Assembly (NCBI RefSeq): GCF_004362145.1
Contig: NZ_SNXC01000009.1
Span: 485,823-549,822, forward strand
DNA from: Marinomonas balearica
GTDB lineage: Bacteria; Pseudomonadota; Gammaproteobacteria; Pseudomonadales; Marinomonadaceae
DNA: 64,000 bases
Direction: 5' to 3'
Shown here piece after piece: positions 1 through 12,806 of the stretch (position 1 is the first letter of the stretch; each line of letters begins with the position of its first letter). A program made the translations under genes and the position numbers. The notes under the pieces are model-generated. The model saw only the letters and a list, made by a program, of their open reading frames with translations. It was not told the DNA's origin and ran no database searches.

Positions 1-75
1 CGCGCTCAGTGCCGTTACACTGCCTGCCATTGAAAGAAAATCTCGTCGTTTCATATCTTTGCCTTCACTATGCAT
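1..75 (-). CDS. Start of a Tat-exported protein (cut by window edge)
   Basis: The minus strand reads 25 codons from an ATG at 75 to the window edge. A second ATG lies at 54. An AAAGGA ribosome binding site sits 7 bases before the first ATG. The peptide contains KRRDFLSMAGSVTALSA, a twin-arginine signal (RRDFL followed by a hydrophobic stretch), so the protein is probably a folded cofactor-containing periplasmic enzyme. Nothing can be said about its function because the mature part lies outside the window. The region 76-257 is the shared upstream region with the divergent hydrolase gene. Confidence 0.6.
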   Translation of the reverse strand, partial: MHSEGKDMKRRDFLSMAGSVTALSA

Positions 76-257
76 CGTCTCGTCCTTTCATTTTCCATTT
101 TGATAAGATATTAAATACGTCGTACGTTAGCGTATTTTTGACTAAATTAAAATTACACGGGATTACACTTAATATCAGAGTATAGGAATGACAAGGAAAA
201 CATCTATATCTGGTGGTTTTAAAGCTGTGTTTGAAAGGAGTCATGTAAGGACGGTTT

Positions 258-818
258 ATGAAGTGTATTTTTGTCTCGGATATCTTCGGGAAAACGGAAG
301 TGCTGCAAGCGTTGGCGGCGCGTTGTGCCAAACATTACGACATTATCGACCCGTATCTTGGCGGTGTGACATTTGACGACGAAGAAAAAGCTTACGACTA
401 CTTTTCGACGTATGTAGGGTTAAGGTCGTATACACAGAGGCTACAACAACACATTGAGGCGCTTACCGAGCCCGTTATTTTGATTGGCTTTAGCGTCGGA
501 GCGTCAGCGATTTGGGCATTGTCGAGCGAGCATAACAATGACCTGAACAGAGCACAGATTGTAAGAGCGGAATGCTTTTACGGCTCTCAAATTAGAAATG
601 GGACTGAGATTATACCGAACTTCAATATTAGGCTGATTTTTCCGCGAGAAGAGGCACACTTTTCGGTCGATGAACTGATCAACGCGCTCAAAGGCAAGCC
701 CAATGTACAGATTGAAAGATCGAACTATTTATATGGTTTCATGAACGCGTTGTCTAAGAACTATGATGAGAGAGGAAAAGACATCTACTGCTCAAGGTTC
801 TTAGATGATCCAATTTAA
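258..818 (+). CDS. Small alpha/beta hydrolase (dienelactone hydrolase-like)
   Basis: This 186-residue cytosolic protein has the nucleophile-elbow motif GFSVGAS (GxSxG, about residues 77-83) after a predicted beta strand (PVILIGFSV), which is the signature of alpha/beta hydrolases. The N-terminus (KCIFVSDIFGKTEVLQALA) resembles dienelactone hydrolase-like proteins in which the first strand ends in a SDIFG loop. It is shorter than most of the family (about 220-250 residues). The start is supported by a TAAGGA site 7 bases upstream. The substrate is unknown. It is followed by an HD hydrolase on the same strand, 114 bases away. Confidence 0.65.
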   Translation: MKCIFVSDIFGKTEVLQALAARCAKHYDIIDPYLGGVTFDDEEKAYDYFSTYVGLRSYTQRLQQHIEALTEPVILIGFSVGASAIWALSSEHNNDLNRAQIVRAECFYGSQIRNGTEIIPNFNIRLIFPREEAHFSVDELINALKGKPNVQIERSNYLYGFMNALSKNYDERGKDIYCSRFLDDPI

Positions 819-932
819 ATGGGTATACACGGCAGTAGTATTCGCGACAGTGGTATGAGCTGAAAATCGTTTAAGTGTCATTGCACAGTATGCGGTAAAC
901 TAAGATAGTACACTGCAAAATAAGAACTTGAG

Positions 933-1568
933 ATGTTATTTAAAGAATACGAGCCTTTATTGCGAGATTACATCGCAGGTGAAATGGATCAGGATTTAGC
1001 GCATGATATGAATCACGTGCTACGCGTCGTGTCTACAGCAAAAACACTGTGTGACGCCGAAAAAGCGAATCGCTCAGTAGTGATTCCCGCGGCGTATCTA
1101 CATGACTGTTTTTCATTTGGGAAAGGTCATCCGCAACGAAGCCAAAGTTCGCAATACGCCGCCGACAAAGCGATTACGTTCTTGAAAACCATAGACTATC
1201 CCCAAGACTACCTGGCTGATATCCACCACGCGATTGTTGCACACAGCTACAGCGCCAACGTTCCCCCTCGCACACTCGAAGCAAAAATTGTTCAAGACGC
1301 AGATCGGCTGGATGCCATAGGAGCGATGGGGATCGTTCGATGTATTCAAGTAGGTTCCAAACTAGACAGAACGTTTTACTCCCAAATCGATCCATTTTGC
1401 GAAGATCGAGCCCCTGACGATGGCGAATTTACCCTCGATCATTTTTACACCAAGCTGCTTAACCTAGAAGACTCTATGCATACGTTATCAGCGGGAGAGG
1501 AAGCAAGAAAGCGAACTGAATTTATGAAGCAATTTCTTGGCCAGCTATCGGTGGAATTGAGGTGCTAG
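933..1568 (+). CDS. HD-domain metal-dependent phosphohydrolase (YedJ-like)
   Basis: A 211-residue HD superfamily protein. The metal-binding residues are visible in order: H in AHDMNHVLRVV (about residue 25-28), the HD pair in YLHDCFSFGKGHP (about residue 56), H in IVAHSYSA, and D in QDADRLDAIGAMGI (about residue 123). The QDADRLDAIGA segment is typical of the YedJ-type subfamily of small HD phosphohydrolases, which probably act on nucleotides or phosphorylated metabolites. The substrate is not known. The gene is monocistronic in appearance and converges on the toxin-antitoxin pair. Confidence 0.8.
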   Translation: MLFKEYEPLLRDYIAGEMDQDLAHDMNHVLRVVSTAKTLCDAEKANRSVVIPAAYLHDCFSFGKGHPQRSQSSQYAADKAITFLKTIDYPQDYLADIHHAIVAHSYSANVPPRTLEAKIVQDADRLDAIGAMGIVRCIQVGSKLDRTFYSQIDPFCEDRAPDDGEFTLDHFYTKLLNLEDSMHTLSAGEEARKRTEFMKQFLGQLSVELRC

Positions 1569-1608
1569 CATTGTGATCTTGCCTTTAGATGGCCTTAGCT
1601 TTGATCCC

Positions 1609-1899
1609 TCAAAGTAACTTCTTAGCATCTCGATAGAAGTTTTCATGAGAACCAAAAGTTAGTAGCTCTAAAACGACAGCATCATCCTCATAGCAGTAAC
1701 CTAGTAAGGTGAGCTGCTTAATCATTTTAAACTTGTAAACTCGCATAAATGCAAGATCACCTTTTTTAGGTTCGCCAAGCAGAGGGTTCTTTATTAGTTC
1801 TTTAACTGCTTTATCAAGATCACTCTTTTGGTTTTTGTGGAGTTTTTTGACGGCCTTTTTAAAACTTGGGGTTTGTGTAACGTGTGTGACTTTAGTCAA
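1609..1899 (-). CDS. RelE/ParE-family toxin, probable TTG start
   Basis: About 96 residues. Features of the RelE/ParE toxin fold are visible: an N-terminal strand (TQTPSFKKAVKKLHKNQKSDL), a helix pair, GEPKKGDLAFMRVYKFK (the strand with a basic residue), and a C-terminal strand LLTFGSHENFYRDAKK. The reading frame is open upstream to 1944, but a TTG at 1899 overlaps the antitoxin stop codon by 8 bases, which is the usual spacing in such pairs. I therefore take TTG 1899 as the start. Targets in this family are either ribosome-bound mRNA (RelE) or gyrase (ParE); the sequence alone does not decide which. Confidence 0.75.
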   Translation of the reverse strand: MTKVTHVTQTPSFKKAVKKLHKNQKSDLDKAVKELIKNPLLGEPKKGDLAFMRVYKFKMIKQLTLLGYCYEDDAVVLELLTFGSHENFYRDAKKLL

Positions 1900-2113
1900 A
1901 TTCGTAAGCCTCAAGTTTGCCAGCTTCTTTTTCTGCTTTGGCAATGATCGCTTGCTTTACAAATTCATAAGGTAAATCTGGATTATCTTCCATCATTTCG
2001 CCAATTTTAGCCCAGTGCTCAATCTGTTTAGGCGTAGTTCGGTTTAACGCTTTCGCCATAATGCTCGCTTTTTCTACTAAGCCCTCGTCTAATCTAATAC
2101 TTGCTGTAGCCAT
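1892..2113 (-). CDS. ParD-like antitoxin of a type II toxin-antitoxin pair
   Basis: A 73-residue protein beginning ATASIRLDEGLVEKASIMAK, a ribbon-helix-helix-like N-terminus, followed by RTTPKQIEHWAKIGEMMEDNPDLPYEFVKQAI. This WAKIGEMMEDNPDLPYEF block is characteristic of the ParD-like/TraY-type antitoxin family. It lies immediately upstream of, and overlaps, the toxin gene, as expected for a co-regulated pair in which the antitoxin is made first and also represses the promoter. A GGAGAAAATC ribosome site precedes the ATG. Confidence 0.85.
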   Translation of the reverse strand: MATASIRLDEGLVEKASIMAKALNRTTPKQIEHWAKIGEMMEDNPDLPYEFVKQAIIAKAEKEAGKLEAYEFD

Positions 2114-2138
2114 GATTTTCTCCTGTTATTTCTGACTA

Positions 2139-2159
2139 ATTGTAGCATTTTGCGACAAT
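2139..2159 (-). promoter_or_regulatory. Putative antitoxin operator and -10 element
   Basis: Upstream of the antitoxin there is an imperfect inverted repeat, ATTGTaGC-5 bases-GCgACAAT. The minus strand contains TACAAT within it, a good -10 hexamer, about 25-30 bases before the ATG. I see no convincing -35. A repeat overlapping the -10 is the expected place for autorepression by a ribbon-helix-helix antitoxin. This is inference from position and symmetry only. Confidence 0.4.
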
Positions 2160-2289
2160 TGTGGTAGTAGACCTTCAAAAATTATAAAGAGAAATTTGGC
2201 CATTGGTCAGACTTACCAAGTATATTAAGCAAGGAGCTCAGGACTATTACGTAAAATTTCATCTACATTAATCGCATGTACCTTGTTCA

Positions 2290-2489
2290 TCACATTTCGT
2301 TGATGGCATCGAGGCTTTCCGGCAGGATTTGGCCTCCATCAACTACGATTTGCTGCCCTGTAATGTAACTTGCTTCGTCGGTTTCACTACGGGCAGGATC
2401 ATGATTTTAACGCCTTGGTTGGAAAATACCTTTGCGATGCCTTTGCCTATTCCTTTTGAAGCTCCGGTGACGATGGCGACTTTTCCTGC
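2290..2489 (-). pseudogene. Short-chain dehydrogenase (SDR) pseudogene with internal deletion
   Basis: On the minus strand the first part reads GKVAIVTGASKGIGKGIAKV, the classic SDR cofactor-binding TGxxxGIG N-terminus. After about 30 codons it jumps, in another reading frame, to [17 protein letters not shown] and ends at TGA 2290-2292, which is the classic SDR C-terminus. About 170 central residues, including the Ser-Tyr-Lys catalytic site, are missing. The start codon is also gone: the codon before the first surviving residue is TGA (2490-2492), exactly where the IS91-like remnant begins. The gene is dead. An intact homologue would be a classical SDR of about 250 residues. Confidence 0.85.
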
Positions 2490-2492
2490 TCA

Positions 2493-2772
2493 ACTATGTT
2501 TACTTCACGTCTTGCCAAAAGGTTTCATGCGAGTAAGACACTATAGCTATATGTTGAATGCGATCAGGCGAAAGAGCCTATTAAAAATACGAGAACAAGA
2601 TCAAGATACGCCTCGTCCTGAAAAAGATAAAAAGGAGCCGGAAGAACAAAGCATCCAACAGGACTCTCCAGTAATGGGGTGTCATTGCCCCGCATGCGGT
2701 GATGTGCCGGCACACCATATAGGCGAAGTCACCTCGAACCGTTGGAAGCGAGAAAAGTTAAGAACAGGCTAG
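2493..2772 (+). mobile_element. IS91-family transposase C-terminal remnant
   Basis: Starting abruptly at the edge of the SDR pseudogene, the plus strand encodes LLHVLPKGFMRVRHYSYMLN, followed by a Lys/Glu-rich linker and CHCPACGD, ending at TAG 2770-2772. HVLPKGFxRxRHYG/S plus a late CPxC zinc-like motif is the C-terminus of IS91/ISCR-type rolling-circle (HUH/Y1) transposases. The catalytic domain is absent, so the element cannot move by itself. The long open frame that starts at 2329 across this point is a chimera: its first part is antisense to the SDR remnant. One-ended or failed transposition next to the SDR gene would explain both truncations. Confidence 0.7.
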
Positions 2773-3079
2773 TGGAATAAAACGAACGTCAGTGAGAATA
2801 GAATCAGGTCAAAGACCCTGAGGTTTTAGGCTTGCCAATCGCCTAGGATCTGGGTAAAACTATAGAGATAGACGATCAAAAAACGATCAAAAAGAGTCTT
2901 CTTAGCCTGATTAAGGACAAGAGCACTCGAAAACACACCGCAAAGACACAGGGAGGTCGCATCATGAAAAAAGCAAATTCCCTATATAAAGACGCGGCAG
3001 TTCAACAGACGGTTATAACTGCGGCTGCGCCGTACTATAACCATTAATTGTTATACCTAAAAGGAAGTAGTCTTAAATT
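2773..3079. other. Non-coding stretch after the IS91 remnant, with a hairpin
   Basis: No convincing gene in about 300 bases. It holds a short direct repeat (ACGATCAAAAA twice near 2873-2900) and an interrupted hairpin at 3011-3042 with arms GGTTATA/TATAACC and an inner GCGGC/GCCGT stem. In an IS91-type element the replication origin end (oriIS) lies downstream of the transposase, so part of this stretch may be the old element end. I cannot place its boundary. Confidence 0.35.
2964..3047 (+). CDS. Possible 27-residue small ORF with strong ribosome site
   Basis: GGGAGG lies 7 bases before an ATG that opens a 27-codon frame beginning MKKANSLYKDAAVQQ and ending TAA at 3045-3047. The 3' half of the frame coincides with the hairpin at 3011-3042. 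I do not recognise the peptide. It may be a genuine small gene, a leader peptide, or an accident within decayed DNA. The ribosome site is the only positive evidence. Confidence 0.2.
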   Translation: MKKANSLYKDAAVQQTVITAAAPYYNH

Positions 3080-3568
3080 ATGAAGTTTCTATTTTGGCTT
3101 TGGAAAACAATACGAACACTTGCCCCTTACTTAATTTTCTTAGGCTTCGGTATTTTATGTTGGTAATGGTTTTTTTTTACTAATCAAGCTCAAGCTAATT
3201 TAGCTGAACCAATTATAAATGGTGTTATAGCTGTTGTTGTCACTTCATTGCTGATTTTAATATTTTCAATTATCTGGCGATAAAATATCACACTTTGGAT
3301 TGAAAATTCATTGTACAAAGACACAAAAATAGAAGGTGTATGGAATGGAGTTTTAGTTCCTTTTATTGGTATTGAGGAGGTCGACAATCGAAGAGTTAAA
3401 ATGACATTCGGCATTGTTGAACTCAGATGACGTAGGAAAACGCAAGGCAGTGATACGGAGTCAAATAATTAGGGAAATGGCACTTCATTGCGTGTATCTT
3501 CATCGGCTCAAGAAAATGAAATTGATCGAGAGGTTGAAGCTGAACTAATAATTAAAGGCCTGAATTAA
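3080..3568 (+). pseudogene. Two-TM plus beta-domain protein gene with four in-frame stops (Cap15-like?)
   Basis: One single reading frame runs from an ATG at 3080 to TAA 3566-3568 but is interrupted by TAA 3164, TAA 3281, TGA 3428 and TAG 3470. Between the stops it reads like protein: a first TM helix (APYLIFLGFGILCW), a second (INGVIAVVVTSLLILIFSII), then LYKDTKIEGVWNGVLVP and a Ser-rich SLRVSSSAQENEID segment. Two TM helices followed by an IEGxWxG beta-strand start are reminiscent of Cap15-type CBASS effectors and related sensor domains, but this is a weak resemblance. An AAGGAAG site precedes the ATG. No indel is needed to join the pieces. I regard it as a pseudogene of a defence-type membrane protein. 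Confidence 0.4.
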
Positions 3569-3864
3569 ACCGTATAGTGACCATGTGGCTCTATTTTGTT
3601 GAAGATCAAGCTCAGCGGAAAAAACAAGTTTTCCTAAAAGACTGGGAAATCAAGCTCGACCAATTTCTTGAGTTTAATGATCGAGAAGTTCTAGTCGGTG
3701 CCGGTTGTATCTCCAAAAAACAAGCCAAAGCCAAAGCCAAAGCCAAAGCCAAAGCGGAAGCAGAGTATGATCGTTTTGCTGAAGAGCGTCGTCGCATCAA
3801 AGGAGACAGGATATTGAAGAATTTCTCAATTGGAAAGCTCCCACATAAATCGCAAGAATTATAA
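3559..3864 (+). pseudogene. RhuM-family protein, C-terminal fragment
   Basis: The frame reads PELNRIVTMWLYFVEDQA, then KDWEIKLDQFLEFNDREVL, GAGCISKKQA and AEAEYDRFAEERRR. This is the C-terminal third of RhuM-type proteins, which are often encoded inside type I restriction-modification operons between hsdM/hsdS and hsdR. The N-terminal two thirds are missing: the frame closes at TAA 3553 just upstream. The 3' end seems frameshifted. In another frame the last codons read QLESSHINRKNYK and stop at a TGA that overlaps the next ATG, the arrangement expected in the intact operon. An ATG at 3583 (3577 is an internal GTG) could still yield about 94 residues, but I call it a remnant. Confidence 0.7.
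3721..3756 (+). repeat. Hexanucleotide microsatellite AAAGCC inside the RhuM remnant
   Basis: Six-base units (CAAGCC, then AAAGCC four times, then AAAGCG) lie in frame and encode a Lys-Ala ladder where intact RhuM proteins usually have a single short KxAxxKAExE segment. Six-base units preserve the frame, so copy number changes would only lengthen the ladder. This looks like slippage in a gene no longer under selection, although in-frame expansion would also be tolerated in a working gene. Confidence 0.75.
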
Positions 3865-3999
3865 ATGACACAGCCATTCCCAAAATTCCAGGAAGAATAC
3901 AGTGTCAAGTTACCGGCGCTGACGTTATTGACGAACTTGGACTGGTTGTTTCTTAATCTTGAGCAAGCATTAGCTGAGCGCGGTGGTGAGGCCGAATAA
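3865..3999 (+). pseudogene. Type I restriction enzyme HsdR, N-terminal fragment
   Basis: The ATG directly follows the RhuM stop (TAA-ATG). The 44-residue product has FQEEYSVKLPALTLLTNLDW followed by LEQALAERGG. The pattern FQExYSxKLPALxLLxxLGWxxLxPxxALxxRGG is the N-terminus of one HsdR subgroup. The frame then stops at TAA 3997-3999, only 23 bases before the epimerase gene. More than 900 residues of the enzyme are missing, so this is a stump left by deletion or by insertion of the following cluster. Confidence 0.65.
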
Positions 4000-4022
4000 G
4001 TATTACAGGAATTGATATTTTT

Positions 4023-4925
4023 ATGAAAACAATTTTAATGACAGGTCATTTAGGCCTGATTGGGCGGTATTTAACGCCATTGTTGGTGCAACAGGGATAT
4101 AGAGTTAAAGGCTTTGATCTCGCCGATGGTACTGGCGATATCTGTCGGAGTGAGCAGCTCAAACAAGCAATCTCTGGGGTAACAGGTGTTGTTCATCTAG
4201 CTGCGGTTTCCAGGGTTATATGGGGTGAACGGAATCCAGAGTTATGTTGGCAGACCAATGCGATTGCGAGCGAACAGTTACTGAAGACCGCTTGTGAGCA
4301 AGCCGATGTAAAACCTTGGGTGCTGGTTGCCAGTAGCCGTGAGGTATATGGAGATTCTGATGTTTTGCCTGTCTGCGATTCAGCATATGTGAGCCCCGTT
4401 AATATCTATGGTCAAGCAAAAGCCTATATGGAAAAAAAGGCGCTAGAAGCTAGGGAGTATGGGCTTAATACCGCTGTGATTCGGCTTGCTAATGTTTATG
4501 GCTGCACAAAGGACCATAAAGACAGAGTATTGCCAGCATTTTGTCTTAATGCTGTTAACAACGCAGACCTGCGTGTGGATGGCCGGAACCATTTATTTGA
4601 CTTCACGCATGTATCAGACACCGTAAAAGGTTTGTCTTTAGTCATTGAACAACTCGAAAATAATGAGAGAAACCTTCCTCCTACCCACCTTCTTCCTGGC
4701 ATTGGTACGACACTTGGTGAAGCCGCCGAAATGGCAATCAAATTCGCTGGGAGTCGCTCTCGAATTATTGAAGCACCATCTCGAAATTACGATGTAAGTC
4801 GATTCATTGGAGATCCGACTCAGGCCAAAGAATTGTTGGGCTGGCAAGCTAATATATCCCCCGAACAGGGTATTAAGCTTTTGGTTAAAGCATTCCAAGA
4901 ACAGTTACAGGAAGTTCCTGCATGA
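4023..4925 (+). CDS. NAD-dependent epimerase/dehydratase (extended SDR)
   Basis: 300 residues. The N-terminus has TGHLGLIGRYL (GxxGxxG, NAD(P) binding), then a VVHLAAVS strand, an S-S-R triad segment (LVASSREVYG) and the active-site YGQAK (YxxxK). The C-terminal part is the substrate domain with FDFTHVSD. This is a nucleotide-sugar epimerase/dehydratase of the UDP-glucose 4-epimerase superfamily; the exact sugar cannot be read. It is the first gene of a five-gene block and overlaps the next gene by 4 bases (ATGA). A CAGGAA site lies 11 bases upstream. I infer that it supplies or modifies the sugar used by the neighbouring GT4. Confidence 0.8.
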   Translation: MKTILMTGHLGLIGRYLTPLLVQQGYRVKGFDLADGTGDICRSEQLKQAISGVTGVVHLAAVSRVIWGERNPELCWQTNAIASEQLLKTACEQADVKPWVLVASSREVYGDSDVLPVCDSAYVSPVNIYGQAKAYMEKKALEAREYGLNTAVIRLANVYGCTKDHKDRVLPAFCLNAVNNADLRVDGRNHLFDFTHVSDTVKGLSLVIEQLENNERNLPPTHLLPGIGTTLGEAAEMAIKFAGSRSRIIEAPSRNYDVSRFIGDPTQAKELLGWQANISPEQGIKLLVKAFQEQLQEVPA

Positions 4926-6217
4926 AAATTGTAAAAGTCATTCATGGTTATCCGATGTTGTATAACGCCGGTTCGGAAGTGTATTCACAAACCATCTGCC
5001 ACGGCTTAGCTAAACGCGGCCATGAGGTGCATGTATTTACCAGAGAGGAAGACTCCTTTCAGCCCGATGGCGCGATACGGATTAGTCATGACGCCGACGT
5101 ACCAGAAATCACTCTGCATCTGGTGAATAACTCACGGATGCGTGATCGCTATCGTTTGGATATTGTTGACCAGCGTTTTGCTGAGTTGCTCGACCAATTA
5201 CAGCCAGATTTGGTGCATATCGGACACCTGAATCACTTGTCTACCTCATTGGTATTTGAGGCTAAAAAACGCGGTATTCCGATTGTTTACACGCTGCACG
5301 ATTATTGGTTGATGTGTCCGCGTGGACAGTTTATGCAGATGCACTCTGCGGATGACAATCTCTGGGCTGCCTGTGATGGCCAAGAAGACAAGAAGTGCGC
5401 AACGCAGTGTTATGCGCGCTATTTCTCTGGCTGTGATCAGGAAAGGGCGGAGGATTTAGCTTATTGGGAAAACTGGGTTAAGCGCCGTATGTCGCATGTG
5501 CGCGATGTCGTTGAGCAGGTTGATTTGTTTATTTCGCCGGCTAATTATCTGAAGCAACGTTATGAAAAAGACTTTGGCCTGCCAAAAGAGAAAAGTATTT
5601 ATCTTGATTACGGCTTCGACCGTACAAGGATGATAGGACGTGTTCGCAGAAACGATGAACCGTTTACGTTTGGGTATATTGGTACCCATATTCCGGCTAA
5701 AGGTATTCACCAGTTAATCAAAGCCTTTGGCATGCTCAAGGGTGAGGCAAAGCTGAGAATCTGGGGGCGGGATCGGGGCCAGGATTCCAGAGCGCTTAGA
5801 GCGATAGCGTCATCTTTGCCTGTCGATAAAGCCAACGCTATCGAGTGGATGCCCGAATACAAAAATCAATCAATTGCAGTGGATGTGTTCAGCAATACTG
5901 ATGCGATTGTGGTGCCATCAGTCTGGGTCGAAAACTCGCCCTTGGTTATTCATGAGGCTCAACAAGCTAAGGTGCCAGTTATTACTGCTGGTACCGGTGG
6001 AATGGGGGAATACGTTCACCATGAAGTGAACGGCTTAACCTACCAACACCGCGACACCGCAGATCTTGCAAAGCAAATGCAGCGTTTACTGGATGCCCCG
6101 GCATTAGCTAGCCAACTGGGACTGCGTGGTTATCCTTTCAGTGATGATGGCCAGATTCCTGATATTTATCAGCACATACTCGACTTGGAAGCATGCTACA
6201 CGAGGGTTATAGGCTAA
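4922..6217 (+). CDS. Glycosyltransferase family 4
   Basis: 431 residues with a GT-B fold. The N-terminal domain has a GSEVYSQTICHGLAKRGHEV acceptor-side motif. The C-terminal domain starts near GYIGTHIPAKGIHQLIKAF and carries the EX7E motif in ENSPLVIHE (about residues 339-347), followed by GGMGEYV, as in retaining GT4 enzymes that use nucleotide sugars. A cysteine-rich insertion (around residues 140-180, with CATQCYARYFSGC) is unusual but occurs in some polysaccharide GT4s with the LHDYWLMCPRGQ segment seen here. It overlaps the genes on both sides (4 bases upstream, TAATG downstream), so translation is probably coupled. Acceptor unknown. Confidence 0.85.
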   Translation: MKIVKVIHGYPMLYNAGSEVYSQTICHGLAKRGHEVHVFTREEDSFQPDGAIRISHDADVPEITLHLVNNSRMRDRYRLDIVDQRFAELLDQLQPDLVHIGHLNHLSTSLVFEAKKRGIPIVYTLHDYWLMCPRGQFMQMHSADDNLWAACDGQEDKKCATQCYARYFSGCDQERAEDLAYWENWVKRRMSHVRDVVEQVDLFISPANYLKQRYEKDFGLPKEKSIYLDYGFDRTRMIGRVRRNDEPFTFGYIGTHIPAKGIHQLIKAFGMLKGEAKLRIWGRDRGQDSRALRAIASSLPVDKANAIEWMPEYKNQSIAVDVFSNTDAIVVPSVWVENSPLVIHEAQQAKVPVITAGTGGMGEYVHHEVNGLTYQHRDTADLAKQMQRLLDAPALASQLGLRGYPFSDDGQIPDIYQHILDLEACYTRVIG

Positions 6218-7245
6218 TGGCACATGAATTTTGGCGTATCACATTGGATACCAATCCAGATTTTTGTAATCTCAATTGTGTGATGTGTGAAGACCATTCC
6301 CCTTATGCGGATAGTCGTGCGGAGAGAAAGAGCTCTGGTTCACTCAGGCCCCTGATGGATGCTGACCTGCTAGAACGGATTGTTCGTGAAGCGGCCGCGA
6401 TGGGCATCAGAGAGATTATTCCTTCGACCATGGGGGAGCCCCTACTTTATCCACATTTTGATACCTTTCTCGATTTGTGTGCGGAATTAGGTTTAACCCT
6501 CAACCTGACAACCAATGGCACATTTCCAGCCCCTAAAGACCATCAAAATGTTGAGTATTGGGCCGAGCGTATTGTGCCGGTTACCAGTGATGTAAAAATC
6601 TCATGGAATGGCGTAAGTGAAAAGACCCAGTCAGAAATCATGGTCGGAACAACCCTTGAAAAACACATTGAAAATGCCAAGCGTTTTGTTGCAATAAGGG
6701 ATAAATGGGCATCCAAGCATTATTGCTCAATGACCATGCAGCTAACCTTCATGCGCAGCAATCTGGAAGAAATTCCAGAGATGCTGGAGTTGGCACTTAA
6801 TCTTGGCTTTGACCGATTAAAAGGCCATCAGTTGTGGACGCATTTTGACCAGATTAAGCATGAAAGCCTACGTAATGACCTTGTCTATGCTAGCCGATGG
6901 AATCAGATTGTTCGTCATTGTCATGAGCGTGTCACGGTCCATAACCAAACGTCTGAGCGTCGATTCCGTTTGGATAATTTCTTTGAGCTGGATTTGGTAA
7001 AACTCGAAGATATTTCGCCAGGTGGGGAATGTCCGTTCCTTGGAAAGGAGTTATGGGTAGATCCAACTGGAAGGCTCAATGTTTGTTGTGCTCCCGATCA
7101 GCAGCGTAAATCATTGGGTGACTTTGGCAATCTAAATACATCCAAACTATCGGAGCTGATAGCTAGCTCTTCCTATCAGAATTTAATGGCAACTTACCAG
7201 TCCCATGATCTCTGTAAGTCGTGCAATATGAGGCGGCCAGCATGA
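6217..7245 (+). CDS. Radical SAM enzyme with SPASM/twitch-like C-terminus
   Basis: 342 residues from the ATG at 6217, which overlaps the glycosyltransferase stop (TAATG); an upstream in-frame ATG at 6193 is less likely. The cluster-binding CNLNCVMC (CxxxCxxC) is at about residues 18-25, followed by the SAM-contacting STMGEPLLYPHFD. The C-terminus has cysteines in ECPFLGKE, a GRLNVCC (Gx4C) and CKSC. That is enough for one auxiliary 4Fe-4S cluster but fewer than a full seven-cysteine SPASM. Such enzymes modify peptides, sugars or other small substrates by radical chemistry. The glycosyltransferase and epimerase neighbours favour a sugar or glycolipid substrate; no obvious precursor peptide gene is visible nearby. 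Confidence 0.8.
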   Translation: MAHEFWRITLDTNPDFCNLNCVMCEDHSPYADSRAERKSSGSLRPLMDADLLERIVREAAAMGIREIIPSTMGEPLLYPHFDTFLDLCAELGLTLNLTTNGTFPAPKDHQNVEYWAERIVPVTSDVKISWNGVSEKTQSEIMVGTTLEKHIENAKRFVAIRDKWASKHYCSMTMQLTFMRSNLEEIPEMLELALNLGFDRLKGHQLWTHFDQIKHESLRNDLVYASRWNQIVRHCHERVTVHNQTSERRFRLDNFFELDLVKLEDISPGGECPFLGKELWVDPTGRLNVCCAPDQQRKSLGDFGNLNTSKLSELIASSSYQNLMATYQSHDLCKSCNMRRPA

Positions 7246-8912
7246 GCATTCTCGAAAAACCAATAATCTCGGAGTGTGGCCGGTATCATATTGAGGCTGA
7301 TGGTAGCCCTTTATACACTGCTCGATTCGATGAGGTTCTCGCTTTTCACAAGGTTGGAAAACGTTGGATAGCCCCCGTCAGACTAGGTATTAAAGCATTT
7401 CATATCGATACGGATGGTTTTCCTATTTACGGTCAACGATTTCATCGTTGTTTTGGTTTTTATAATGATCTGGCTGCTGTTGTTGGTGAAGATGGTTGGT
7501 ATCACATCGATGAAAGCGGGAGCGCACTGTATTCACAGCGCTATGAATTTGCCGGTAACTATCAGGAAAAGGTTTGCGTTGTAATGGATTCTGATGGTTT
7601 GTACTTCCATTTGAATGTTATAGGCGAACCGGTCTACGACAGCAGATGGGGATACTGTGGCGATTTTCGTGGTGGGGTTGCTGTTGTGCAGGCTGGCAAC
7701 GGTTTGAGCACACATATTCTTCCAAACGGCTCTTTGCTTCATGATATCTGGTTTTCTGATCTGGATGTGTTTCACAAGGGCTATGCAAGAGCCAAGACCC
7801 TCCAAGGCTGGTGCCACGTAAATAAACAAGGTAACGCAATCTACTCCGAACGTTATGCATCGGTTGAACCTTTCTATAACGGCTTTGCTCGTTGTGAAAC
7901 CGATGATGGGGCATTGCTAATCATTGACGAATCAGGTCATGTTGCTCGTCAGTTGCGAGGGCCAACTTGTGACATATTTGCTGAGTTATCCTCTGATATG
8001 GTGGGATACTGGAAGACTTGTACGATTTATACCAGTGTGAAGTTGGACATTTTTGAGCAACTTCCAGCGACGATTGAGCAGTTGTCGTTGTCTTGCCAAT
8101 CTAACTCTGAAAGGGTTGTTCGATTAATGAGAGGGTTAGCTGAGCTTGGCTTAGTCTATCTGGAGGGTAATTGTTACGTCGTTTCAGAGAAGGGGAGTTA
8201 TCTTTGCCTGAACCACAAAAAAACCTTGGCGGATGCCGCGATCGAATATGGTGAAGATCTTTTGCAACGTTGGAAGTCTTTACCGGCGCTGATTCAAGGG
8301 AAACGGCTGGAATCAGATATTTTCTATGCAGTGGCGGCTGATTTGGAGCGGGTAAAATCTCATCATCGCATGCTCGCGAGTTATGCCATGCATGATTACA
8401 CTCAAGTTGTTCCCTTGCTACCAATTCAAAAGGGACAAAGGGTCCTAGATGCAGCAGGCGGAACAGGGACACTTGCAACCCTAATACAAGCTCATTTTCC
8501 TGAATCATCGGTACTTCTCGGCGACTTGGAGTCCGTTTTGAACGAGTCACAGTTTGATAAGAAGCTGGAGCTGGACTTGTTCAGTGAGTGGTCGGGAGCT
8601 TATGACGTAGTGATACTCGCTCGCGTTCTTCACGACTGGGACGATGTTGATGCTATAGAGGTTCTGAAACATGCCAAGCATGCACTGAACTGTTGTGGTG
8701 AAATATTTATTTTAGAAATGCTGATGCTGGAAAGTTCAAATTCTGGTGCTTTATGTGATCTACACCTTATGGCTGCTACCGGTGGGAAGGAGAGGACAGA
8801 ATCTGAATTTGAGCGTCTATCCAAACAGGCCGGATTGCGTATTAAAAGGGTTACGAAGCTCCCATCCTTAGTATCACTTATTGTACTGGAACGAGGTGAG
8901 AACAATGGCTAA
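7242..8912 (+). CDS. WG-repeat protein fused to an O-methyltransferase
   Basis: 556 residues from the ATG at 7242, which overlaps the previous stop (ATGA). Residues about 10-240 consist of five or six WG-type repeats with a recurring W/F-x-HID-x-x-G-x-x-LYSxRY...GFxxGLA pattern (for example GWYHIDESGSALYSQRYEFA and GWCHVNKQGNAIYSERYASV). The second half is a class I methyltransferase of the hydroxyindole/small-molecule O-MT type: a winged-helix dimerisation segment (LDIFEQLPATIEQLS), SAM motif I VLDAAGGTGTLATLI, and ARVLHDWDD with a later ILEMLML. A WG-repeat region welded to an O-MT is unusual. The repeats may bind substrate or a partner enzyme. The product overlaps the phosphatase gene by 8 bases. 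Confidence 0.75.
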   Translation: MSILEKPIISECGRYHIEADGSPLYTARFDEVLAFHKVGKRWIAPVRLGIKAFHIDTDGFPIYGQRFHRCFGFYNDLAAVVGEDGWYHIDESGSALYSQRYEFAGNYQEKVCVVMDSDGLYFHLNVIGEPVYDSRWGYCGDFRGGVAVVQAGNGLSTHILPNGSLLHDIWFSDLDVFHKGYARAKTLQGWCHVNKQGNAIYSERYASVEPFYNGFARCETDDGALLIIDESGHVARQLRGPTCDIFAELSSDMVGYWKTCTIYTSVKLDIFEQLPATIEQLSLSCQSNSERVVRLMRGLAELGLVYLEGNCYVVSEKGSYLCLNHKKTLADAAIEYGEDLLQRWKSLPALIQGKRLESDIFYAVAADLERVKSHHRMLASYAMHDYTQVVPLLPIQKGQRVLDAAGGTGTLATLIQAHFPESSVLLGDLESVLNESQFDKKLELDLFSEWSGAYDVVILARVLHDWDDVDAIEVLKHAKHALNCCGEIFILEMLMLESSNSGALCDLHLMAATGGKERTESEFERLSKQAGLRIKRVTKLPSLVSLIVLERGENNG

Positions 8913-9501
8913 GTTGCTTTTGGTACGTCATGCAGAGCGCCCTGATATCCCTGCAAATACAGTTGGAAATGAAGTGCTTCTGACGGATAAAGGTAAAGAA
9001 GATACCCGAAATTTTGCCCGATCTATCTCCGACCCAGTTGTTTCTATTCAATCGAGCCCTATTGGTAGGTGTCTACAAACCGCAGAGATTATTGCGGATG
9101 TTGTTGGTATTGAGCGAGACGATATCGTCTCTAATCGAGACCTTGGTGACCCTGGATTTATAATAAATGACGCTCGAAGTGCATGGACTCATTGGCAAGA
9201 GAAGGGACATGAAAGAGTCAATCAGCACTTATTGTCAGGTGGAGAGCAATGGGAGGGATTTAAGGAACTGGACCATGCTGTTAAAATTTTTGATACCAGT
9301 ATTCGAAAACAACTTTCTAAACAGAACGAAGGTGTCCATATTTGGATAACGCATGACACTATCCTAGCGACATACGCCTCTCGCATCATGCCGACTAGGT
9401 TGAAAATGACGCAATGGCCACGATATCTCGATTTTCTTGCATTAGAACTTAAAAATGGTGACTTCGTTTATAAGTACTTCAATCAGGGAGCGGATGACTA
9501 G
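8905..9501 (+). CDS. Histidine phosphatase family protein
   Basis: 198 residues from the ATG at 8905; an AGGTGAG site precedes it and the first 8 bases overlap the methyltransferase gene. The N-terminus KLLLVRHAERPDIP contains the RHA/G phosphohistidine motif, then LTDKGKEDTRNFA, SSPIGRCLQTAEII (second arginine) and the late catalytic WITHDTILATYAS. All catalytic residues of the phosphoglycerate mutase-like branch are present. In a sugar/radical SAM cluster it may remove phosphate from an intermediate. It is the last intact gene of the block; its TAG at 9499-9501 abuts the broken aminotransferase. Confidence 0.85.
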   Translation: MAKLLLVRHAERPDIPANTVGNEVLLTDKGKEDTRNFARSISDPVVSIQSSPIGRCLQTAEIIADVVGIERDDIVSNRDLGDPGFIINDARSAWTHWQEKGHERVNQHLLSGGEQWEGFKELDHAVKIFDTSIRKQLSKQNEGVHIWITHDTILATYASRIMPTRLKMTQWPRYLDFLALELKNGDFVYKYFNQGADD

Positions 9502-10514
9502 TGGAACAGTTACCCATACCCGATATATTGTTTCCATTGTTGACGACTAAATTGACGCGTTAAATCGTACGCTTCCGAATGAATTATCGAATATTGTGCT
9601 TACGTGCTCGGGCAGTGAAGCAAATGATCTCGCAATGCGTCTTGCTTGTAAGGTCACCGGAGGCAGTGGTTTTATTGTGACAGAGTGTGCTTATCACGGA
9701 AATACCGCGTACGTCACCGAGGTGTCTCCATCTGCGATGAAAAATGGTGTGCTCCCTCCACATGTGATTGCCATTCCTGAGCCGTCTACTAGCAATTACG
9801 GCGTGGACATTGAGGCAGGCTTCGCCCATCGCGTCAAAACGGCGGTTGACGAATTGCGTGAGCGAGGCGTGAAAGTGGCAGCTCTGCCGTTGATGTTATT
9901 CGAAACGCAGGAGGCGTTTACATAGCGGATGAAGTTCAACCTGGGTTTGCTCGTACAGGGGAGGCATTTTGGGGCTTTGAAGCGCATGATGTGTTTTCAG
10001 ATATCGTGACGATGGGCAAACCGATGGGAAACGGTTTTCCTATGGCGGGGGTTGCGACCAAACCGAGTTTCCTAGCAACGTATTGTCAAGGCGTTGGGTG
10101 TTTTAATACGTTCGGCGGAAACCTCGTGGCGGCCGCTGCGGGTCTTGCTGTCTTAAACACGATCGAGTCGCAAGGGTTACAAACTAACGCGTTGAAAATA
10201 GGTCGTTATATTAAAGATCGTTTGTTAGACATTGCTGGACAATCGAACATCATCGGTGAGATAAGAGGGTCTGGGTTATTTTTTGGGATAGACGTCGAGG
10301 AAAATGGTGTCCCAAGTGCAACGCTTTCGGTACAGTTAATTGATCAACTGCGTGAACAACGGATACTTGCTGGTGCCGCTGGAAAGCATGGTTCCACGTT
10401 AAAACTGAGACCGCCGCTTTGTTTGACTCCAGCGGAAGCCGATTTTTCATAGAGGGTTTTCAACGAGCTGTACGAGCGTTATGCGATAACCCAAATAGGG
10501 AAGGTGATCTTTAA
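9502..10514 (+). pseudogene. Class III aminotransferase pseudogene
   Basis: Pieces of a PLP-dependent class III aminotransferase follow one another in order. THTRYI comes right after the phosphatase stop, then an in-frame TAA at 9548. LTCSGSEANDLAMRLACKVT and CAYHGNTA are next, then a deletion and frame change near 9905. VYIADEVQPGFARTG, the PLP-lysine motif VTMGKPMGNGFPMAG and FNTFGGNLVA follow. Near 10443 one T is missing from a T run; beyond it, frame-shifted, IEGFQRAVRAL reaches TAA 10512-10514. Roughly the first 80-100 residues and 15-20 internal ones are gone. The gene was probably part of the amine/amino acid catabolic neighbourhood to its right before the cluster on its left arrived. 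Confidence 0.9.
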
Positions 10515-10693
10515 TGGATTGCGGTGATTAGATATATTTACTATGACTAGTAATTAGCGAGTCTTATCCCGCTCACCGTTCCTGATATCTGGCTTCAAAT
10601 CCATATATGAGAGCGTTTCTCGATTCGTTGGCGGTCGACGTGAATATCTGACACAGTGTTTCCCTAAATTGTATTCTGCTTTTTTGGTGTAGA

Positions 10694-11608
10694 TTACTCC
10701 GCTCGTTTTACGCCCTCCGTAATGTCTAATTCAGTGAGTAACCGATCATAAAAATGTTTGGCCGCACCAGATAAGGGGTTGAGGTTGGAGGTAATGACCT
10801 CTAAAGGTTCGATAACCGTGGGGCGAAATGGTCGCACTGCGATGTTCGGAAAATTGAAAACGTCGCTAAAATGGTGGAAGTTTAGAGCATCAACCAGAGT
10901 CGCTCCCATGCCTAAGTTTACAAACGACATCGCGTGAACTGTGGTGTGAACTTCAATTGAACGTGACAACTTTTTATCCATTTGAGCGTACACTTTTTTG
11001 AGTGTTTTTGTCGTCGCGTTTTCAGAATCCAGCGTAATCCAATCTAGCCCCACTAGGTCTTTGGGCTCTATTACATCAAGCCGTGCAGAGTGATGGTTTT
11101 TCGGAACCGCGCAATAGCACGTCAGATCAAAGGCGGCGGAATCATGTTTAGAAGAGCTTTGGGCTTTGTCTACCAAGCCAATTTGATACTGACCTGAGGC
11201 AACACCTTGTCGAATCGCGGAACACCCAGAGTGATGCAAGCTTACATGAGTGTTAGGGTGTTCTTCTTTAAATCGGGCAATGAGACTAGGGAGAAATTGA
11301 TAGGAAGGACCGAATATACTGCAAATTCTTAAACGCCCCGCGTTATCATTTTTTGCTCGCTTGATGCTGTCTTCGAGATGATTTACACCCTGTAATAAGC
11401 CGTACACTTCTTCGTGTAAGAACACTGACTCGTCGGTGGGGGTGAGTTTTCCGTTATTTCGAACAAACAGTTTATAGCCAATTTCTTCTTCAAAGTTTGC
11501 CAGCATTTTACTCGCGGCGGGCTGGCTGACGCAGCAACGTTCGGCAGCTCGGGTAATGCTTCCCGTGACGAACACTTCATGAAAAATACGGAGCTTATTA
11601 ATGTTCAT
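10694..11608 (-). CDS. LysR-type transcriptional regulator
   Basis: 304 residues. The N-terminal winged helix-turn-helix (INKLRIFHEVFVTGSITRAA followed by CCVSQPAASKMLANFEEEIG) is canonical for LysR regulators, and the rest is the periplasmic-binding-protein-like effector domain. It is transcribed divergently from aapJ with 166 bases between the starts, which contain two inverted repeats, so it probably controls the transporter operon and itself. The effector is unknown; an amino acid or amine imported by the Aap system is the simplest guess. Confidence 0.9.
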   Translation of the reverse strand: MNINKLRIFHEVFVTGSITRAAERCCVSQPAASKMLANFEEEIGYKLFVRNNGKLTPTDESVFLHEEVYGLLQGVNHLEDSIKRAKNDNAGRLRICSIFGPSYQFLPSLIARFKEEHPNTHVSLHHSGCSAIRQGVASGQYQIGLVDKAQSSSKHDSAAFDLTCYCAVPKNHHSARLDVIEPKDLVGLDWITLDSENATTKTLKKVYAQMDKKLSRSIEVHTTVHAMSFVNLGMGATLVDALNFHHFSDVFNFPNIAVRPFRPTVIEPLEVITSNLNPLSGAAKHFYDRLLTELDITEGVKRAE

Positions 11609-11614
11609 TTGTGC

Positions 11615-11694
11615 ATAACCTTATGTTATAGACCTATTAAAAATATTCAGTGTGATTATCAATATGCTTCACATAAGATCCTATAGGTTATGTG
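11615..11694. promoter_or_regulatory. LysR-type binding sites between the regulator and aapJ
   Basis: Two symmetric sites are visible. At 11615-11629, ATAAC-CTTAT-GTTAT is a T-N11-A type LysR box just upstream of the regulator's own start. At 11670-11694, CACATAA and TTATGTG are separated by 11 bases. The pair resembles the usual recognition-site plus activation-site arrangement of LysR regulators at divergent promoters. No footprint data exist here; the assignment is from symmetry and position. Confidence 0.5.
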
Positions 11695-11774
11695 ACTGAA
11701 TGTGAAAATAAATTCAGCAGGATCCAACCAAACAAAAAATATAAATGTCCACGAAACAAAAGGAACCACGATAC

Positions 11775-12806
11775 ATGAAAAATGCAAAATCGTTATTCGT
11801 ATTGGCATCTTCTCTTTTCTCGGCAGCGAGTTTTGCCGCAGACACACCCTCGACTTTAGATGAAGTTCAAAGTCGCGGTTATATGAACTGTGTGATTGGT
11901 AATTCTTTCCCCGGGTTCTATAGCCTAAATAAAGAAGGTGAATGGCAAGGAATGGACATTGATATGTGCCGAGGCGTTTCCGCCGCTGTTTTTGGTGATG
12001 TGAACAAAGTGAAATTCCTTCCTGTTCAGTGGGCGCAAAGTTTCACCTCCATCAAAAGTGGTAAGGGCGATATGCTGTCAAAAGGGATGACTTGGACGTT
12101 GTCTCGCGATACACAGCAAGGGCTCGATTTTTTAGATACGTACTTTTACGACGGTCAGGGTTTTATGGTGCGTAAAGACCTAGGTGTATCGTCTGTTTAT
12201 GAGCTTGAAGGCGCAACGGTATGCGTGCTGACTGGCACATCTAGTGAACTCAATATTGCCGACTTTAGTCGAGCGAATAACCTAGATTTGAAAACAGTTG
12301 TTTTCGATGATTCTTCTGTACGTAACACCGCTTTCTTTAATGACAATTGCGATGCATTGACCAATGATAAATCCGGCCTCGCGGCACAACGTTCTGGCGC
12401 ACAGAACCCTGATGACTATATTGTTTTGCCTGAAACTATTTCAAAAGAAGCTCTGTCTTTTGCTGTTAAACAAAATGACAGCGAATGGTCGAATGTCGTT
12501 AAGTGGACATTCGCAGCCATGGTTGCAGCGGAGGAATATGGAATCACATCAGAAAATGTTGAGGAAATGCGAGCACAGAGCAACAGCCCCATTGTGCGAC
12601 GTTTATTGGGTGTTGAAGGTGATCTAAACAAAGGCTTGGGGTTACCTAAAGACTGGGCCTATCAGGTTATTAAACAAGTCGGAAATTATGGCGAAGTTTA
12701 CGAGCGTAATGTTGGGGAAAACAGCATATTGGGTTTAAAACGCGAAGGCACGCTTAATGCGTTGTGGAAAGAAGGCGGAATGATGTACGCCAAATCTTAC
12801 CGTTAA
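11775..12806 (+). CDS. aapJ: General L-amino acid ABC transporter, periplasmic binding protein
   Basis: 343 residues from the ATG at 11775; an AAAAGGAAC site lies about 10 bases upstream. The first 20 or so residues (SLFVLASSLFSAASFAA) are a Sec signal peptide. The mature part has the AapJ signature VQSRGYMNCVIGNSFPGFYS and MDIDMCRGVSAAVFGD, plus an ALTNDKSGLAAQRS segment, of the family 3 solute-binding proteins. It delivers L-amino acids to AapQM. It is the first gene of aapJQMP and is separated from aapQ by a strong hairpin, which fits higher expression of the binding protein. Confidence 0.92.
   Translation: MKNAKSLFVLASSLFSAASFAADTPSTLDEVQSRGYMNCVIGNSFPGFYSLNKEGEWQGMDIDMCRGVSAAVFGDVNKVKFLPVQWAQSFTSIKSGKGDMLSKGMTWTLSRDTQQGLDFLDTYFYDGQGFMVRKDLGVSSVYELEGATVCVLTGTSSELNIADFSRANNLDLKTVVFDDSSVRNTAFFNDNCDALTNDKSGLAAQRSGAQNPDDYIVLPETISKEALSFAVKQNDSEWSNVVKWTFAAMVAAEEYGITSENVEEMRAQSNSPIVRRLLGVEGDLNKGLGLPKDWAYQVIKQVGNYGEVYERNVGENSILGLKREGTLNALWKEGGMMYAKSYR

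Follow-up and report, generated by a model that had tools for sequence, protein, structure and literature searches.

A window of 64,000 nucleotides from Marinomonas balearica (contig NZ_SNXC01000009.1, positions 485,823 to 549,822; "the window" below) contains a packed, transferable gene unit with a near-invariant core: a GT4 glycosyltransferase, a radical SAM/SPASM enzyme, and a WG-repeat domain. An epimerase, an O-methyltransferase, and a histidine phosphatase are common partners of this core, and in the window all of these are encoded by five overlapping genes. Relatives of the unit occur in nine phyla, and the first four genes share content and order with the core of the Undecim cluster carried by phage WO of Wolbachia. 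The unit is tentatively read, at somewhat less than even confidence, as a mobile cassette that makes a glycosylated, radical-modified, O-methylated small molecule whose likeliest use is against phages.

Organization of the five-gene block

Five plus-strand open reading frames (ORFs) without internal stops span positions 4023-9501; consecutive genes overlap by 4, 1, 4, and 8 bases (ATG starts at 4023, 4922, 6217, 7242, and 8905). The sequence-only reading had described five families on one strand with overlaps of 1-8 bases, and its view that sugar, radical, and methyl-transfer enzymes are brought together in one operon-like unit is borne out.

4023..4925, + strand: NAD-dependent epimerase/dehydratase, 300 amino acids (aa) (PF01370, 6e-36)
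4922..6217, + strand: GT4 glycosyltransferase, 431 aa (PF00534, 9e-22; PF13439, 2e-20)
6217..7245, + strand: radical SAM/SPASM enzyme, 342 aa from the ATG at 6217, or 350 aa from 6193 (PF04055, 9e-13; SPASM PF13186, 3.6e-8)
7242..8912, + strand: WG-repeat domain (about residues 1-240) fused to an O-methyltransferase (about residues 245-556) (PF14903, 1.8e-6; PF00891, 3e-22; PF08100)
8905..9501, + strand: histidine phosphatase, branch 1, 198 aa (PF00300, 1.9e-11)

The maximum 19-residue mean hydropathy among the five proteins is 1.45, so all five look soluble. NCBIfam equivalogs are all far below their cut-offs, which makes a specific name impossible for any of the five; naming the sugar through the epimerase or GT4 failed on the same ground. 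The top solved-structure match of the epimerase is UDP-glucose 4-epimerase (4zrm, 8.5e-27). Scans of positions 3500-9900 give 3 promoters against 11 expected by chance and 8 terminators against 5.8 expected, and Rfam gives no match at gathering score on positions 1-12000.

Recurrence across genomes

The block arrangement is far above chance expectation. With the radical SAM protein alone as bait, an alignment search against genome contigs gave 207 relatives, 80 of which were kept as loci L011-L090; the addition of two viral contigs (L091 and L092), the window, L005, L006, L009, and L010, and the removal of L019, bring the set to 86 loci. Dropped before counting were L008 (the same stretch as L011), L019 (a 99.99% copy of L018), L001-L004 (short copies), and L007 (a partial record). 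A locus is termed well-flanked (n = 64) if its contig extends more than 4 kb upstream and more than 5.5 kb downstream.

A GT4 gene lies nearby in 85 of the 86 loci, as does a WG domain (85/86), and both are present in 64/64 well-flanked loci. The methyltransferase domain is found nearby in 67/86 loci (52/64 well-flanked), the phosphatase in 62/86 (50/64), and a same-strand epimerase in 35/86 (33/64); all five gene types occur together in 22/86. GT4 and radical SAM are fused into a single ORF in 37 loci. The WG domain was found with no methyltransferase in 18 loci, which places it closer to the core than the methyltransferase. Tree labels cover nine phyla, many of the rows being metagenome bins, and loci from the same assembly or genus are not independent. 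Recurrence in unrelated genomes, which the sequence-only reading had named as support for a system, is thus what the neighborhood survey finds. The block itself is rare: own genome included each time, it is present in 2/48 genomes of the genus (at 1e-30; the same-genus genome G023 carries it), in 3/369 of a class sample (1e-30), and in 1/398 of a phylum sample (1e-60).

Further neighbors of the core include carbamoyltransferase, class II aldolase, PhyH, and AAA_33 proteins, along with a longer histidine phosphatase. Nucleotidyltransferases and tyrosine phosphatases are seen too, and in some loci these, or kinase-like proteins, stand in for the phosphatase. The set is found in Sorangium, Myxococcus, and the symbiont Endobugula sertula. 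On the viral contigs, terminase and SSB genes (L091) and endolysin and integrase genes (L092) lie near the core.

Some single loci have features of their own. Candidatus Endobugula sertula, a bryozoan symbiont (L049), has the full set with GT4 and radical SAM fused. A Bacteroidota bin (L089:7310-8263) and viral contig L092 (7287-8195) have in common an uncharacterized ATPase-like gene on the opposite strand directly upstream of GT4; the L092 copy has no PHROG match. In L016 the phosphatase ORF is broken or absent; there a 413-aa protein (L016:10450-11691), whose start resembles a P-loop, is encoded between the WG gene and hsdR and has no Pfam or PADLOC match.

Mobility of the cassette and the hsdR scar

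Within the window's own group the block is transferred whole, as a cassette of 5.5 kb. Loci L014 (Pseudoalteromonas) and L017 (Alteromonas) are 92% identical over 5505 bp and share nothing else at 1e-10; the shared stretch begins 29 bp ahead of the epimerase start and stops 19 bp short of the end of the phosphatase gene in L014. The L014 copy lies within a type I restriction-modification operon, and the L017 copy beside TnsB-like (2e-14) and weakly TniQ-like genes. Two Marinobacter loci, L021 and L022, are likewise 92% identical over 6141 bp, confined to the module.

Remnants of other genes lie at both edges of the block in the window.

3865..3999, + strand: hsdR stub (type I restriction gene, 5' end only), 44 codons (tblastn with HsdR of L012 and L016)
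9512..10452, + strand: remnant of a class-III aminotransferase gene at the right edge (Aminotran_3 pieces)

The hsdR stub, directly upstream of the epimerase, is 71-72% identical to residues 5-51 and 5-46 of HsdR of L012 and L016 and matches at the nucleotide level too. In L012 and L016 the same hsdR stub upstream and an hsdR gene downstream form a direct repeat (113 bp, 96%; 129 bp, 80%); L011 has a diverged hsdR stub alone, with no hsdR cluster member nearby. The window, L011, L012, and L016 make up one supported clade in the radical SAM tree, and the pattern is most simply explained by one old insertion at hsdR, followed by movement. In genome G019 the left flank is shared as far as window position 3054 and the right flank again from 9512; roughly 12.8 kb of different sequence separates the two, so the site is variable; from 9512 on, the aminotransferase remnant matches G019 at 93-97% of nucleotides, within an open 784-codon ORF there. 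Mobility, the hsdR stub, and the defense surroundings of relatives all go beyond the sequence-only reading.

Positions 2499-3054 hold a repeat (about 270-560 bp) that has 16 matches in its own genome, itself included, and many in G019; by eye, its ORF and an ORF of G019 look like the end of an IS91/ISCR-type transposase, an element that could carry neighboring DNA. A remnant ORF before the hsdR stub (3577-3864) looks by eye like the C-terminal part of a RhuM-like protein, and RhuM-like proteins often occur in restriction-modification operons. Two small minus-strand ORFs at 1609-2113 (111 and 73 aa), toxin-antitoxin-like by eye, are present in G019 too. In a BD1-7 clade isolate, two contigs (L018 and L019) share a 21-kb stretch, module included, at 99.99% identity, which is either a recent duplication or an assembly artefact.

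Defense-gene surroundings

Twenty flanking proteins, chosen by eye as likely defense genes, were scanned singly with PADLOC. Matches include HsdM, HsdS, PDC-S14, and HsdR around L014; SIR2 and HerA around L012; DndC and DndD around L018; JetC and JetD (Wadjet) around L040; a type I restriction enzyme (3e-37) and HEC-05 around L020; and DarT, AbiEi, and PsyrT around L009, L010, and L023, respectively. Five of the 20 have no match (433 aa of L016, 481 aa of L022) or a weak one (858 aa of L016, two proteins of L017).

A controlled comparison was made for the gamma group, to which the window belongs, with 120 of 131 listed flanking proteins from 17 loci; L024 was excluded, as were two ORFs at locus edges and one ORF of 2000 aa. 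Its control consists of 126 of 150 listed proteins from 26 of 30 usable random regions in 15 of the 17 genomes; the L014 and L023 genomes had no usable region. At E<=1e-20, 231 PADLOC families are matched in the flanks versus 12 in the control, numbers that overstate the difference because one protein matches many models. At E<=1e-50, at least 14/120 flanking proteins match versus at most 4/126 control proteins (p=0.009; the former counted singly, the latter as the sum of members), and 8/17 loci versus at most 4/26 control regions (p=0.028). Cuts including further tally members give p=0.009 and 0.001.

Several points weigh against a defense role. Weaker gamma cuts with generous control bounds are not significant (p=0.14 and 0.17; these and the p=0.009 and 0.001 of the further cuts were computed with 27 control regions, the correct number being 26). 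Outside the gamma group, 17 loci were excluded beforehand, and 88 of the 172 listed proteins, for the most part those closest to the module on either side, were compared; there is no clear defense excess (44 families in 88 proteins of 50 loci versus 37 in 98 proteins of 20 random regions), so that a defense association as a rule for the whole family is not upheld and the link has support in the window's own group only. Eight of the 17 gamma-type loci, the window included, have no strong defense match among the proteins scanned singly, and the gamma loci are not all independent, since L012 and L016 share one insertion. Genomic islands gather many kinds of cargo. None of the five block proteins fits a dedicated PADLOC model, and the block was accordingly rejected as a member of a PADLOC system. 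Lastly, an ABC transporter gene lies near the symbiont versions L005 and L050 (seen also in the excerpted text of PMC4701759), and L010 has a multi-pass transporter-like gene by eye, which suggests that the product is exported there.

Enzyme features and proposed pathway

In 40 aligned rows, Cys25, 29, 32, 280, 298, 299, 341, and 344 of the radical SAM enzyme are invariant, the last five lying in the SPASM region. Its structural model (pLDDT 89.8) has the peptide maturases SuiB and SkfB as top structural neighbors and also matches viperin, BlsE, anSME, DesII, and PqqE; as all seven match, the choice of a substrate from this fold failed. The WG domain, all-beta in a model of the WG-methyltransferase (pLDDT 93.4), has invariant histidines at 16, 54, 88, 123, 158, and 192, spaced by about 35 residues, and N106, Q108, H167, H178, and K179 are likewise invariant (40 rows); the repeated histidines suggest a putative binding or metal site. 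The methyltransferase domain, with its motifs intact in the window, is nearest to the natural-product enzymes LaPhzM, CalO1, DtpM, MmcR, and DnrK. The phosphatase has no PDB relative by sequence. The single PDB sequence match of GT4 at 1e-8 is Tll1590, presumably a sucrose-phosphate synthase; together with the phosphatase, it weakly suggests that the GT4 acceptor is phosphorylated.

In the proposed pathway, the epimerase would supply a sugar nucleotide and GT4 would place the sugar on a small cytosolic acceptor, perhaps phosphorylated, from which the phosphatase would next take off the phosphate; possible precedents are sucrose-phosphate synthase/phosphatase, MshA, and GpgS/GpgP. The radical SAM enzyme may add a further change, with the WG domain, which is kept where the methyltransferase is missing, binding or presenting the substrate, and the methyltransferase would cap the product. 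Because copies of the unit sit among defense genes, next to genes of Tn7-like type, and on plasmids and phage contigs, and because the five-gene form has no exporter, the product most likely acts within the cell in conflicts with phages or other mobile elements. Homology, gene order, mobility, and the hsdR scar are shown directly; the substrate, the sequence of steps, the part played by the phosphatase, and the purpose are inferred.

A bolder version is rather doubtful: GT4-radical SAM-WG would be central to a chemical anti-phage system, widespread and so far without a name, that makes a cytosolic glycoside by radical chemistry, has swappable tailoring enzymes, and spreads on restriction operons, transposons, plasmids, and prophages. 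Undecim would then be a form captured by phage and remodeled, in which the methyltransferase domain is dead and a dioxygenase has assumed some of the tailoring. The open-access literature searched gave no description of the cassette as a defense system, and the excerpted text of PMC7159879 has no such gene set. If the cassette does protect against phage, it would add a new chemistry to bacterial immunity.

Alternative readings

The strongest competitor, unlikely though with a real claim, is an island-borne small-molecule pathway for antagonism or host association, yielding an antibiotic- or signal-like glycoside and unrelated to phage defense. The kinship of the methyltransferase domain with antibiotic-tailoring enzymes, the carbamoyltransferase and PhyH neighbors in some loci, the ABC transporter gene of the symbiont versions, and the presence in Sorangium, Myxococcus, and Endobugula sertula all fit such a pathway, but the five-gene form has no exporter and the gamma group has defense surroundings.

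Tailoring of a surface glycan (lipopolysaccharide or capsule), as published for UC1-UC3 and UC10 of Undecim (proposed in the excerpted text of PMC9203015), is improbable here. The epimerase and GT4 families would suit it, and UDP-glucose dehydrogenase-like genes, by eye and by record annotation, adjoin some symbiont versions; however, the unit moves alone and consists of five soluble enzymes, and no surface-polysaccharide genes are recognized beside the window block. No locus of that kind (polymerase/flippase, or ABC export with several glycosyltransferases), and so no O-antigen or capsule locus, is seen in the window flanks, which were covered by eye only beyond 11.6 kb (ORFs at 11.7-40 kb). 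Glycan tailoring, as the sequence-only reading had suggested, thus gains no positive evidence. What the flanks do contain is an HD protein, remnants, a LysR regulator, ABC-type transport genes, and amine-oxidation genes; the run of transporter and amine/sarcosine-oxidation-like genes at 11745-34638 looks ordinary and, by eye, like glycine betaine catabolism.

Modification of a nucleotide or nucleic acid (a hypermodified base, tRNA, or an antiviral nucleotide) has a small and comparable chance of being correct. Viperin and BlsE are among the nearest folds of the radical SAM model, proteins of kinase-like, nucleotidyltransferase, and tyrosine-phosphatase type replace the phosphatase in some loci, and restriction genes are nearby, but the fold match is broad enough to include peptide maturases, the sequence match to viperins is weak, and Pfam finds no nucleic-acid-binding domain in the five proteins. 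A pathway for a ribosomally synthesized and post-translationally modified peptide with an overlooked precursor, for which the SuiB and SkfB likeness speaks, is very unlikely, as the overlapping genes leave no space for a precursor between them, the block edges have only the hsdR stub and ORFs of 16-33 aa, and Pfam finds no peptide-recognition domain in the five proteins; the earlier argument from a missing precursor thus stands, with a very short peptide at either edge still conceivable.

Comparison with viperins and Undecim

Prokaryotic viperins (pVips) resemble the window enzyme in being radical SAM enzymes beside defense genes, and viperin is among its nearest folds. A pVip has a close match to the pVip profile, stands alone or with a nucleotide kinase, and lacks SPASM, whereas the window enzyme has a SPASM domain (3.6e-8), a pVip match of only 7e-9, and GT4 and WG partners in nearly every locus; it does not fit this definition of a prokaryotic viperin.

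The sequence-only reading knew of no named pathway with this exact gene set, but the Undecim cluster already published for phage WO (UC1-UC11, WD0611-WD0621) has epimerase, GT4, radical SAM, and WG-methyltransferase as its core. The order of these genes is identical, and identities to the window are 41% for the epimerase, 50% for GT4 (against the N-terminal half of the phage WO fusion), 48% for radical SAM, and 31% for the WG-methyltransferase; the phage WO record used carries an UNVERIFIED flag. In contrast to the window, GT4 and radical SAM are one protein in phage WO, no histidine phosphatase is found there, and PhyH, an ABC transporter, two threonine aldolases, and other genes follow (PMC4701759, in excerpt, among the sources). 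In the window, the block is adjoined by remnants and the LysR regulator rather than by the full 11-gene set, recurrent neighbor clusters 9, 13, and 21 have no member in its first 17 kb, and the locus is a chromosomal Marinomonas one, its flanks common to a same-genus genome, instead of lying in or beside prophage WO. As these two defining features, the full gene set and the prophage position, are absent, the block is not an Undecim cluster; it shares the Undecim core and may work like it.

An Arsenophonus plasmid (CP132904) has the four genes in order and unfused (radical SAM 47% identical to the window on Arsenophonus plasmids); PhyH, an SHMT-like protein, and threonine aldolase adjoin, the SAM motif is lost, and no phosphatase is found. 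The annotated record omits its GT4 and radical SAM genes. Among aligned WG-methyltransferases, 34/38 keep the SAM-site motif D-[AV]-[AG]-G-[GS] and the H-[DN]-W motif; the motifs are lost in phage WO, Arsenophonus, L050, and L052, and also in L056, which was read separately. A PhyH gene lies beside the module in all five of these loci, and the sole other PhyH locus, L051, keeps the motifs. No phosphatase is found in L005, L006, L050, and L052, which fall together with G142 and a Francisellaceae bin on the radical SAM tree. The phage WO branch is a derived form; phage WO itself sits on a long branch and is weakly placed (92/43), and four changes on the tree are required if PhyH is treated as a label.

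Undecim gene roles are predictions from annotation and homology, among them methylation by UC4 (PMC9203015, in excerpt), and the functions are described as currently unknown (PMC12801941, in excerpt). The cluster is reported to be highly expressed and, in one Wolbachia strain, to have been duplicated while other prophage genes were lost (PMC9203015 and PMC12801941, in excerpt). A KWG repeat-methyltransferase fusion and possible syntenic relatives in Desulfovibrio, Haliangium, Capnocytophaga, and Saprospira were noted earlier (PMC4701759, in excerpt). Even if the cassette gives no phage protection, the motif loss in the phage WO copy makes methylation by UC4 (WD0614) doubtful. Wolbachia is difficult to manipulate. 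A compact, apparently intact five-gene relative is available in free-living bacteria, in the window and in Marinomonas piezotolerans, where experiments should be feasible. The Undecim core is already published, and the window's cassette is a five-gene form that shares this core and its order.

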